Assembly: GCA_903889265.1 (NCBI GenBank)
Contig: CAISWS010000097.1
Coordinates: 1 to 37,782, forward strand
Source: an uncultured Bacteroidota bacterium
GTDB lineage: Bacteria; Bacteroidota; Bacteroidia; Chitinophagales; LD1
DNA length: 37,782 bases
Direction of reading: 5' to 3'
A program made the translations under genes and the position numbers. The notes under the pieces are model-generated. The model had not been told where the DNA came from. It made no database searches and saw only the letters and a program-made list of their open reading frames with translations. Shown here one piece after another: positions 20,567 to 36,109 of the stretch. Numbering within the stretch: the stretch's first letter is position 1; each line of letters opens with the position of its first letter.

Positions 20567-21706
20567 TTAAAGTGCTTCTCCGTATATTTTTCTGAAATCA
20601 GCACGGCTAACCGGCTTAGGGTTATTCGGGTGTGCAAAATCAGCAAACGCCAGGTCCGCAAGGGTCTCCAGATGTTCTTCCTTAACGCCTATTTCACGCA
20701 ACCGGTGCGGTATATTTACTTTGGTGTTCAAATCAAAAAGATAATTTACCACACCTTCGCCGCTTTCATCTTTCAATTCAAAAATGCGCGCCATCCTGCG
20801 GAATTTCTCCTCAAAACCATCAATGTTAAACCGCATACCATGCGGAATGTTTACAGCGTTAGCCAAACCGTGGTGCGTATCCAGTAAGCTCGACAACGGA
20901 TGCGCTAACGAGTGCACCACCCCCAATCCTTTTTGAAACGCCACAGCGCCCATCATACTTGCCATCAGCATATTTGAGCGGCTTTCCAAATCAGGCTTGT
21001 TGGTGGCTTTCTCTAACGATAATGAAATCAAACGCATGCCTTCCAAAGCTATACCATCGCACATAGGATGGTAGTTCTTCGCTAAAAATGCTTCCATGTT
21101 ATGCGTAAGGGCATCCATACCGGTTGCAGCGGTAATAAAACCGGGCAATTCCATAGTTAAAACCGGATCGGCAAAAACAATCTTTGCCAATAATTTTGGC
21201 GAGAAAAGTATCTTCTTCTGGTGCGTTACATCATCAGCAATAATAGCACTGCGGCCTACTTCACTACCCGTACCGCTGGTAGTTGGTATGGTTACAAAAT
21301 GAGGCACATCGTTGGTAACGTATATGTCGCCGCCAATCAGGTCATCATATTTAAACAGGTCCTCGCGGTGGTTAACGCGTAAAACTATCGCACGGGCAAC
21401 ATCCAAAGCGGCACCTCCGCCAATACCAACAATACAATCGCTTTTGGTAGCATCCCACATATCGCCACCCTTGTAAACATCACTCTTAACCGGGTTTTTA
21501 TGTATGTCGCTAAATACCTCGGCTGCCAATCCTTTGGCTTTTAAATCAGCCACAATTGCTTTAAAGAAATCAAGCTGGGCAACATTAGGGTCAGTAACCA
21601 CCAGCGGACGGCTCAAGCCGTTTTTCTTTAAATAATCAGGCAGTTCCTTCACAACATTGGCGCCAAAACGGATGGTAGTAGGGAAATTAAATTGCGAAAT
21701 GCTCAT
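20567..21706 (-). CDS. Iron-containing alcohol dehydrogenase
   Basis: Group III (Fe-type) alcohol dehydrogenase of 379 residues. NAD-binding GIGGGAALDVARA (94-106) and PTTSGTGSEV (141-150) are intact. The metal ligands expected from the family are Asp198 and His202 (GMDALTHNMEAF), His265 (VVHSLAHPL) and His279 (DTHHGLANA). It may interconvert an alcohol and a semialdehyde, for example 4-hydroxybutyrate and succinate semialdehyde, given the neighbours, but the substrate is inferred only. It is the first gene of the putative three-gene operon and has a good promoter at 21753-21782. Confidence 0.9.
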   Translation of the reverse strand: MSISQFNFPTTIRFGANVVKELPDYLKKNGLSRPLVVTDPNVAQLDFFKAIVADLKAKGLAAEVFSDIHKNPVKSDVYKGGDMWDATKSDCIVGIGGGAALDVARAIVLRVNHREDLFKYDDLIGGDIYVTNDVPHFVTIPTTSGTGSEVGRSAIIADDVTHQKKILFSPKLLAKIVFADPVLTMELPGFITAATGMDALTHNMEAFLAKNYHPMCDGIALEGMRLISLSLEKATNKPDLESRSNMLMASMMGAVAFQKGLGVVHSLAHPLSSLLDTHHGLANAVNIPHGMRFNIDGFEEKFRRMARIFELKDESGEGVVNYLFDLNTKVNIPHRLREIGVKEEHLETLADLAFADFAHPNNPKPVSRADFRKIYGEAL

Positions 21707-34034: not shown

Positions 34035-35033
34035 TTACTGGTATAACTCCACTATTCTTTTAGCCGATTCTTTTAGCTCATCGGCCAGCTTTTGTGGCTT
34101 CAATACTTTTACCTTATCTCCGTAGCTCAGCAGCTGCATTTTAAGTTCTGTATTAATTACCAGGTCTAGCGAAATGCGCAGTTCAGTTTTGTTATCTTTT
34201 AAAATGGTTTGTGAAAGGTGTAGCGGTATGGTTTTTATATAATTGCCTTGCTGGGGCAAAAAAGATAACACCACCTTTTCCGGCTCTCCACCACCCACAG
34301 TTACACCAAGCACATTCTTGTAAAAATTCTTCCGGTCTATCTTATCATCACTAAAGGTTTGATTTGTTAATTGCAGGTCCTGTATCCGGTCAAGTGCAAA
34401 CGTAAGTATCTTATGGTCCTGCTTACTGATGCCATTGCCAATCACGTACCAAAAGTTTTTCGATTCACGTATCAGGTAGGGCTCCAGCAGGTTTTGGGAA
34501 ACAGTATCACTGCCATGCCGCTGGTAACTAAACTTTAAAACCTTTCTTTCCGATATCGCTTTCAATATAGGCTCAACAAACTCAATGCCCTTAATAATAA
34601 ACGGCTTATCCAGTTGTATATGGTCGCTTTCTCCCCGGGCCTCTTTATTCAGCTTTACGGTACTCGCAATTTTGTGTATAGCCTCTTCAAACTCCTTTAT
34701 GGCAGGCAGGTGCTTAAACTGGTCCAATATGCTGATGGCAAAATCAAGGCCATGTAATTCATCCGCGCTTACCGGAAGGTTGTGGATCGTATAGTGCTCA
34801 TCGGTATATCTGTAAGTATGCTCCTTTTTAGAAAAAGCGATAGGAGCATTAAAATTAAGCGACTGGTTGTAACGCATTTCCTGCAAATCAAGCTGCATAG
34901 TACGTTTTGACACCTGCCTGTCAAGGTTCGCGCTTACAAACTCCATTAACTCCTCCAAACGCGGATAGGGCCGCTTGCGCAGGCGCATATCTATCAGTTT
35001 GTATCGGGTGTACGCATCTCTGTTCTGGGGCAT
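34035..35033 (-). CDS. WYL-domain transcriptional regulator
   Basis: DNA-binding regulator of 332 residues. A winged helix-turn-helix occupies about 5-60 (RYKLIDMRLRKRPYPRLEELMEFVSANL...SKRTMQLDLQEM). The WYL domain (about 155-222) includes LEPYLIRESKNFWYVIGN, with the signature tripeptide as Trp-Tyr-Val at 195-197. A WCX-like C-terminal domain follows. WYL regulators bind nucleic acids or nucleotides and often control stress or phage-defence genes, but this one has no defence genes beside it. It is divergent from two small unknown genes, and related 23-bp dyads lie before each side. Confidence 0.9.
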   Translation of the reverse strand: MPQNRDAYTRYKLIDMRLRKRPYPRLEELMEFVSANLDRQVSKRTMQLDLQEMRYNQSLNFNAPIAFSKKEHTYRYTDEHYTIHNLPVSADELHGLDFAISILDQFKHLPAIKEFEEAIHKIASTVKLNKEARGESDHIQLDKPFIIKGIEFVEPILKAISERKVLKFSYQRHGSDTVSQNLLEPYLIRESKNFWYVIGNGISKQDHKILTFALDRIQDLQLTNQTFSDDKIDRKNFYKNVLGVTVGGGEPEKVVLSFLPQQGNYIKTIPLHLSQTILKDNKTELRISLDLVINTELKMQLLSYGDKVKVLKPQKLADELKESAKRIVELYQ

Positions 35034-35077
35034 GGGTTCGGTGTTTCTTAAAACTCAATCAATAACAGCACTGCTTA

Positions 35078-35100
35078 ACTGCAAAGAATCCCTGCGCAGT
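35078..35100. promoter_or_regulatory. Operator-like dyad, degenerate copy, before the WYL gene
   Basis: ACTGCAAAG-N5-CTGCGCAGT has the same 23-bp length as the dyad at 35175. The right arm matches it in 8 of 9 positions and the left arm in 6 of 9. It lies 45-67 nt upstream of the WYL ATG, the position for autoregulation. Confidence 0.5.
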
Positions 35101-35174
35101 TATCAACCGGGCTCCCCCTTTAAGGGGCGGAAGGGGCGGCTGTTTATTCCTGCAATATCCGAAAAATAAATTTT

Positions 35175-35197
35175 ACTGCGCAAATACATTGCGCAGT
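35175..35197. promoter_or_regulatory. Operator-like perfect dyad before the small-gene pair
   Basis: ACTGCGCAA (35175-35183) and TTGCGCAGT (35189-35197) are exact reverse complements around ATACA. The dyad lies 39-61 nt upstream of the ATG at 35236, in a divergent intergenic region where no terminator is expected, and no T-tract follows. It is the best candidate site for the neighbouring WYL protein. Confidence 0.6.
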
Positions 35198-35235
35198 GAC
35201 CGGCCAACTTTGTGCTATCAATTAAAACAAACGAT

Positions 35236-35682
35236 ATGTTAACAACACCTTCAAACACATTTGCCAAACACGAGTTGTATGTCAATGAAATTGAGTTTAC
35301 CCATAAGGACGAGGTTTCCCTCTTCGGGTTTCTGCAGGAATGTGGAAAATTCTTCGAAACCCAGTATGTCATCTCGCGTAAAGACTTACAGATACTGTTG
35401 AGTCAGAACAAGGCGGGAATTGAAATACTGTGGCAGATTGAGAAACTTTTTGCCGGCCCCCATGCAGCCCCGGCCTCGCTTAACCTTATAGACCTGTTTG
35501 GTACCACACAGGTTTTTGATACTTGTGAAGTAAAATTAGATGTGCCCCATTATCAGGACGAGCAAGGCAACCTGAAGCCATGCCAGACTAAAGAACTGTT
35601 TTTTATTGAAGAAGTAACCCCGCTGAACCGGATTGGTAAAGCCCCGGGTGCACGCCCTGCCACAATCTCTTCCACATTATAA
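35236..35682 (+). CDS. Hypothetical protein divergent from the WYL gene
   Basis: I do not recognise this 148-residue protein. It is cytoplasmic by appearance (no signal or membrane segment), with mixed helix and strand: KHELYVNEIEFTHKDEVSLFGFL, YVISRKDLQILLSQNKAGIEILWQIEKLF, then VFDTCEVKLDVPHY and a Pro/Ala-rich tail (GKAPGARPATISSTL). A GTG eight codons earlier is possible; the ATG at 35236 is preferred. A second small gene follows 25 nt later, so the two should be cotranscribed under control of the dyad at 35175. Confidence 0.7.
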   Translation: MLTTPSNTFAKHELYVNEIEFTHKDEVSLFGFLQECGKFFETQYVISRKDLQILLSQNKAGIEILWQIEKLFAGPHAAPASLNLIDLFGTTQVFDTCEVKLDVPHYQDEQGNLKPCQTKELFFIEEVTPLNRIGKAPGARPATISSTL

Positions 35683-35707
35683 ATCATGCTATAAAAACCA
35701 AAAAATC

Positions 35708-35905
35708 ATGCAAGTACTTAAATATAACCTCATTAACGGCCCAAAACAGACAGTAACGGACTACCTGGAATCGTTAAACAACGATGAACTACAAAACAAT
35801 TTCAACTCCTTGCTTGTTTACGGCATAAGGCTGCCCGACCTGGTAAGAAAAATGCGCGATGAACTGCGTAAAAGAAAAATAGACACCCAGGCCATTCTTT
35901 TTTGA
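35708..35905 (+). CDS. Small hypothetical protein, second gene of the WYL-linked pair
   Basis: Sixty-five residues, not recognised. It has one short strand-turn start (MQVLKYNLINGPKQT) and a long charged helical part (VTDYLESLNNDELQNNFNSLLVYGIRLPDLVRKMRDELRKRKI). The open frame continues 25 codons upstream, but that part overlaps the previous gene and reads as noise. The ATG at 35708 lies 25 nt after the upstream stop. A strong rightward terminator at 36045 ends the transcript. Confidence 0.65.
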   Translation: MQVLKYNLINGPKQTVTDYLESLNNDELQNNFNSLLVYGIRLPDLVRKMRDELRKRKIDTQAILF

Positions 35906-35914
35906 CCGGTGTGG

Positions 35915-35936
35915 AAAATCACCGGTTGCCATGTTC
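35915..35936. repeat. 7-bp inverted repeat after the WYL-linked pair
   Basis: ACCGGTG and CACCGGT pair around TGGAAAAT about 10 nt after the stop at 35905. No T-tract follows, and the real terminator is further on at 36045. The 139 nt between the stop and that terminator hold no reading frame of note. Confidence 0.35.
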
Positions 35937-36044
35937 CAAAAGGCACTTAATATCGCCCCGCGTTTGGTATAAGCGCTGTGAAAATCTGAAATAACCGGTT
36001 TTATGGAATAAGATCTGATTTTGTTTTTGTTGCCTTGGTTTCTT

Positions 36045-36080
36045 AGCCCTGAGTTCGTGGATGTTCTCAGGGCTTTTTTT
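36045..36080 (+). terminator. Rho-independent terminator of the WYL-linked small-gene transcript
   Basis: AGCCCTGAG (36045-36053) and CTCAGGGCT (36066-36074) form a perfect 9-bp stem with a 12-nt loop, directly followed by TTTTTT. It ends the rightward transcript of the two small genes, leaving a 3' untranslated part of about 140 nt. It also lies 30 nt past the stop of the leftward MFS gene. Confidence 0.75.
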
Positions 36081-36109
36081 AAATAACAGTTGCCTATTTA
36101 ATTTTTCTC

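Follow-up and report, generated by a model that had tools for sequence, protein, structure and literature searches.

The WYL-domain regulator described here is likely an activator of the DriD/PafBC type, which would run a second DNA-damage regulon in Bacteroidota, independent of LexA. Its gene lies in a 37,782 bp stretch of DNA from an uncultured member of Chitinophagales, referred to below as the window. Sequence comparison strongly supports the view that a 23 bp dyad near this gene is a genome-wide operator, common to recA and to the gene of a 148-aa protein and paired with the WYL regulator. The elements of the locus are as follows.

34035..35033, minus strand: WYL-domain transcription regulator of 332 aa, wHTH-WYL-WCX, recognition helix VSKRTMQLDLQEMR (ORF and Pfam)
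35078..35100, no strand: degenerate dyad-like sequence ahead of the WYL gene (7 of 9 complementary pairs; unconserved)
35175..35197, no strand: putative regulon operator ACTGCGCAA-ATACA-TTGCGCAGT, core TRCG-N11-CGYA (sequence, recurrence and conservation)
35205..35212, plus strand: CAACTTTG, a 5/6 match to the Bacteroidota -7 box TAnnTTTG, 7 nt past the dyad (sequence)
35236..35682, plus strand: 148-aa protein with a predicted SSB/RPA-like OB fold (AlphaFold2, Foldseek, VIA-align)
35708..35905, plus strand: 65-aa protein with three predicted helices and a C-terminal QAILF, a putative QxxLF sliding-clamp-binding motif (motif conservation, model)
36045..36081, plus strand: intrinsic terminator of the small-gene unit, AGCCCTGAG-N12-CTCAGGGCT-T7 (fold of -17.4 kcal/mol, z -4.3)

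The three genes of the first-pass annotation were borne out by the open reading frames and Pfam, and the strong terminator it placed after the small genes is real. Both the WYL (residues 152-221, 2.7e-13) and the WCX (residues 250-327, 8e-11) domains of the regulator score above the Pfam cut-off, and its N-terminal wHTH was deduced from alignment. The two small genes are separated by 25 bp, and the terminator sits about 140 bp past the stop codon of the second. A perfect LexA-type box CTAA-N5-TTAG (CTAACCGGCTTAG) occurs at 20607-20619 of the window and may be there by chance.

The perfect dyad is the sole match in the window at up to three mismatches (chance expectation 0.03) and, since copies of this 23-mer are also found ahead of recA and further genes, the site is real and far beyond chance. 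The operator consensus, ACTRCGCAA-N5-TTGCGYAGT, is present across two genera of the family. We compared 30 genomes of this family, belonging to four genera (g1-g4). The window's own genome contains 11 dyads at up to three mismatches versus none for a reversed-pattern control; its relatives in g1 and g3 have up to 17, perfect copies among them. When 149 genomes of the order were scanned at up to two mismatches, at least eight sites were found only in members of g1 and g3, with no more than four elsewhere. One subgroup of g1 has just one or two dyads at this threshold, and its copies before the 148-aa gene have drifted in the outer arms.

Among the genes that follow the dyads are recA (seen in six of the genomes read first), radA, dnaB, a topoisomerase/gyrase B subunit gene and an SNF2 helicase gene, so that the regulon holds repair and replication genes, as expected for a regulator of the DriD/PafBC type. 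IS1- and IS1595-type transposases, AAA ATPases, a repeated wHTH family and small unknown genes are also found there, and many of the targets are mobile-element genes or genes without known function. The operator is located directly upstream of IS1- or IS1595-type transposase genes at L064, L072, L077, L081 and L096 (genomes G000, G001, G009 and G023), an arrangement that suggests damage-linked transposition. The repeated family comprises probable wHTH proteins of about 210-260 aa (METTPxIPQKFDDLLKLEKIE...), with several copies per genome, each having its own upstream dyad (L063, L068, L070, L078, L082-L085). Phage use of the dyad was considered as well: two exact dyads were present in IMG/VR contigs, both inside coding sequence, and therefore provide no evidence for it.

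Relatives of the 148-aa protein are encoded in 25 of the 30 genomes, covering every member of g1 and g3 but no member of g2 or g4. Close orthologues of the WYL protein (48-100% identity over nearly the full length) have the identical 25-genome distribution and are missing from all five g2 and g4 genomes. In a scan of 84,980 species genomes, the WYL orthologue was found in 24 loci, all of them in uncultured Bacteroidota MAGs, some of which are titled Chitinophagales. The divergent arrangement of the WYL gene and the small genes is kept in nearly all relatives, and in every one of them a dyad, degenerate in some, precedes the 148-aa gene by about 40 bp; both features had been noted in the window alone. 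In G002, G005 and G013 the WYL gene is unlinked, yet the dyad remains before the 148-aa gene (degenerate in G002 and G013). Among the g1 and g3 loci compared, those of g1 have the 65-aa gene after the 148-aa gene, and no 65-aa gene was found in those of g3. The g3 homologues of the 148-aa protein (L019-L025), which have no 65-aa partner, end in AGLF or SGLF, possibly a weak clamp-like tail absorbed into the same protein. A distant relative of the 148-aa protein is encoded on contig C459 of G000 (L030:1486-2100), 8.5 kb from a second perfect dyad (L001:5846). This contig also carries an S24/XRE repressor gene, a helicase-like gene and a lysozyme-like gene and is probably part of an integrated element.

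The first-pass annotation had proposed a pair of related dyads, one before each side of the divergent unit. The perfect copy is conserved; the degenerate one at 35078-35100 was found neither in the closest relative (95% identity between the WYL proteins) nor in any of the other relatives read. It also has no TAnnTTTG box at the 7 nt distance that most sites show. We rejected it as a functional regulon site after this conservation test; it is probably not one. Because this copy is unconserved, the 97 bp between the two centres, although measured correctly, has no comparative support as a spacing of nine helical turns.

The dyad was also found outside the family, which bears on the question of which protein binds it. 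In six other families of the order, it lies 35-385 bp before WYL genes whose products are 30-35% identical to that of the window (G083, G050, G159, G049, G061, G144, G158, G055, G118 and G128); at least the first five of these genomes were first met through a search for the dyad pattern alone. No site scoring 16 or more was found at WYL genes with higher overall identity (35-39%) whose products have another recognition helix. Outside the family, the dyad accompanies 10 of 11 WYL genes with a shared recognition-helix type and none of 13 others when the class is drawn strictly (p 6e-6, the class having been set after seeing the data), and 10 of 13 versus 0 of 11 when it is drawn loosely enough to fit the window protein too (p 2e-4); as the genes are related, these p values are guides only. 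Taken together with the co-occurrence inside the family, the association singles out the WYL protein as the likeliest binder of the dyad, and the pairing of the two is strongly supported by these comparisons. The earlier suggestion that the WYL protein binds both sites of the locus is thus kept in part: it very probably binds the conserved dyad, and binding to the second is unsupported.

In several of these other-family loci, an rtcB or TROVE gene, identified by Pfam, is divergent from the dyad-bearing WYL gene, with the dyad located between the two at L182, L184, L185, L187, L189, L190 and L193. Such loci likely represent WYL-controlled RNA-repair operons. As relatives with the same dyad stand beside rtcB or TROVE, the ancestral signal may have been damaged RNA. 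This raises the possibility that the window's WYL protein itself senses RNA damage, in the form of RNA ends or tRNA fragments, and that its regulon is a general nucleic-acid-damage response. The ligand pocket could be taken to point the same way. Among solved structures, the WYL profile best matches PafB, PafBC and one further WYL protein, which we take to be DriD. Of the PafB residues that ssDNA binding requires, the window protein has equivalents of Y196 and R214 and none of R211, R208 and R181; Ala at the R211 position is common among the Bacteroidota WYL proteins examined. Since the ssDNA contacts are only partly kept, we inferred the ligand from the regulon rather than from the pocket. 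However, the identifiable chromosomal targets in the family are recA, radA, dnaB, the topoisomerase subunit and the SSB-like protein, and rtcB was not seen next to this WYL gene, so we regard RNA sensing as an unlikely account of the present-day regulon.

Until 2021, LexA was believed to be absent from the Bacteroidota. The SOS response of Bacteroidetes has since been described as run by a non-canonical LexA, for which CTAA-N5-TTAG is the published motif (PMC8565304). In 11 genomes (G000, G001, G004, G009, G010, G016, G020 and G022-G025), the dyad is located before recA with a score of at least 16 out of 18, and the same genomes have a perfect CTAA-N5-TTAG box 79-102 bp before the reference point at the recA start. 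The WYL-type dyad is distal and the LexA box is proximal. Only the LexA box is present at recA in genus g2, which has no WYL protein. In G002, G005, G006, G012, G014 and G017 the dyad-like sequence at recA is degenerate and apparently lies inside the end of the upstream coding sequence.

This layout argues against the dyad being the operator of LexA itself, of the S24 type known from Bacteroidetes, or of another S24 repressor, with the WYL gene as a mere target. Such an assignment would suit the SOS-like composition of the regulon (recA, radA), the N5 spacer of the known LexA sites, which are likewise dyads (PMC8565304), and the dyad lying about 280 bp upstream of an S24 gene in G000 and G001. 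However, recA has a perfect LexA box of its own besides the dyad. Most genomes contain the conserved LexA orthologue (about 262 aa, S24), represented in the window's own genome by a fragment at 97% identity, and its promoters have no dyad; several of them contain CTAA-type sequences. Neither LexA nor a LexA box at recA was detected in G002 and G005, both of which retain the WYL gene; dyads are not lost along with LexA, as G005 keeps eight of them and G002 keeps a degenerate one at the 148-aa gene. The dyad also marks WYL genes in other families, and control by LexA or another S24 repressor is very improbable. The S24 protein near the perfect dyad on C459 was rejected as the regulator because few genomes have this type and the conserved LexA has boxes of its own. 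We likewise rejected the WYL protein as a replacement for LexA, since LexA orthologues are found in most genomes.

The geometry of the sites speaks for activation. In 117 oriented views of 58 distinct sites with flanks, the distance from the dyad to a TAnnTTTG box (at least 5/6) is exactly 7 nt in 45 views and 6 nt in 11; the background, taken over five offsets combined, is 3.9%. The dyad occupies the position of the -33 promoter element at a fixed distance from the -7 box, as is characteristic of operators of the DriD/PafBC type. Since it replaces the -33 element 7 nt before the -7 box, the WYL protein most likely activates; the rigid spacing favours an activator, and a repressor could occupy the same position.

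The two small proteins have no family in Pfam, NCBIfam, PHROGs or PADLOC. The AlphaFold2 model of the 148-aa protein (pLDDT 79.8) has a strand-rich fold with inserted helices, and its top Foldseek matches (E about 0.01) are almost exclusively OB folds of the SSB and RPA kind and their relations. VIA-align gave Z of 5.0-5.5 against RPA, PriB and SSB, moderate values of a kind that can mean a shared fold only. Judging from this model and these moderate scores, the protein is predicted to have an OB fold, and it likely binds ssDNA. The model of the 65-aa protein (pLDDT 74) gave no match in the fold search. Its C-terminus is QxxLF in 16 of 19 orthologues, with varying x positions; a C-terminal Q-x-x-L-F with variable x is the pattern of sliding-clamp-binding motifs, and the protein is a probable clamp binder. 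Two of the three orthologues without QxxLF are those of the LexA-less G002 (L018:1900-2097) and G005 (L026:1897-2118), where this end of the protein is lost and the WYL gene is unlinked.

These properties also bear on the idea, put forward in the first-pass annotation with reference to CapW/BrxR-like proteins, that the three genes form one system. In a local system of the CapW/BrxR kind, the WYL protein would repress the small genes, a defence or toxin-antitoxin pair, and release them on infection. BrxR is a repressor of defence genes and islands which binds 11 bp repeats, and defence islands often contain WYL repressors that have inverted repeats close to their own promoters (PMC9122601). The window locus shares with them a WYL regulator adjoining an inverted repeat with an N5 spacer, and its divergent layout is conserved. 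However, the dyad recurs genome-wide as an operator and has recA among its targets, and a self-contained three-gene system is not supported; one and the same locus is conserved across two genera, without adjacent defence genes, a PADLOC match for the small proteins or a repression signature. An SSB-like fold and a clamp motif are not effector domains, and a site that replaces the -33 element in fixed phase with the -7 box suggests activation, all of which makes a local defence system of this sort highly doubtful.

We therefore prefer the DriD/PafBC-type reading, under which a WYL dimer would bind ACTRCGCAA-N5-TTGCGYAGT and, in the manner of DriD and PafBC, help RNA polymerase to use promoters that have no -33 element, probably upon DNA damage and in parallel to LexA. 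The signal would most likely be a nucleic-acid ligand of DNA damage, e.g., ssDNA held in the WYL/WCX groove. Products of the adjacent operon, a putative ssDNA-binding OB-fold protein and a putative clamp-binding small protein, would act at damaged forks, while the distal, WYL-driven recA promoter would work beside the LexA-controlled proximal one. Other replication and repair genes, along with mobile-element genes, would be further targets.

DriD of Caulobacter, a WYL protein, activates a DNA-damage regulon that is independent of SOS (PMC12340889, PMC4211646). Its consensus ATACGAC-N7-GTCGTAT occupies one position relative to the -10 element, overlapping a poor -35, and leads to activation (PMC12340889). 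The two systems have in common a wHTH-WYL-WCX regulator, the operator core TACG-N11-CGTA, the replacement of the -35 element at a fixed distance from -10, and a small-protein target (DidA in Caulobacter) alongside replication and repair genes. They differ in phylum and in the operator, which here has an N5 spacer and longer arms versus N7 in DriD; moreover, the present regulon includes a recA promoter, its small-protein targets bear no relation to DidA and the ssDNA contacts are partly conserved.

PafBC activates via sigma adaptation (PMC11804915), and mycobacterial recA has both PafBC and LexA promoters (PMC11804915, PMC5656591). Here too recA combines WYL-type and LexA-type promoters, LexA is retained, and PafBC is the best solved sequence match. 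In contrast to the PafB/PafC heterodimer of mycobacteria with its asymmetric -26 motif, a single gene is present, whose product is presumably a homodimer on a symmetric dyad, and the WYL operator at recA is distal rather than proximal. The non-canonical LexA of Bacteroidetes (PMC8565304) shares with the present system the phylum and the recA target, and its CTAA-N5-TTAG boxes occur in these genomes, but it is an S24 protease regulator with another motif, and the WYL regulon persists without it in G005. Searches of the literature on WYL proteins and DNA damage in Bacteroidota, and on WYL proteins with RtcB or TROVE, turned up no title or abstract that describes this system.

A broader scenario, on which we are evenly divided, is that the family has evolved a second SOS response. 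A WYL regulator whose relatives in sister families stand before RNA-repair genes would have taken a recA promoter beside LexA and added a fork module made of an SSB-like OB-fold protein and a clamp-tethered helper; transposons and integrated elements would have put the operator before their own genes, tying their movement to damage of the host. If the proposed regulon is real, dual control of recA by LexA and a WYL protein, which has so far been described in mycobacteria, would be found in a further phylum too, and this would suggest repeated origins of such control. With so explicit an operator, targets can be predicted in any genome of the group, and the system yields two new candidate replication-fork proteins together with a possible link of mobile elements to damage signalling.
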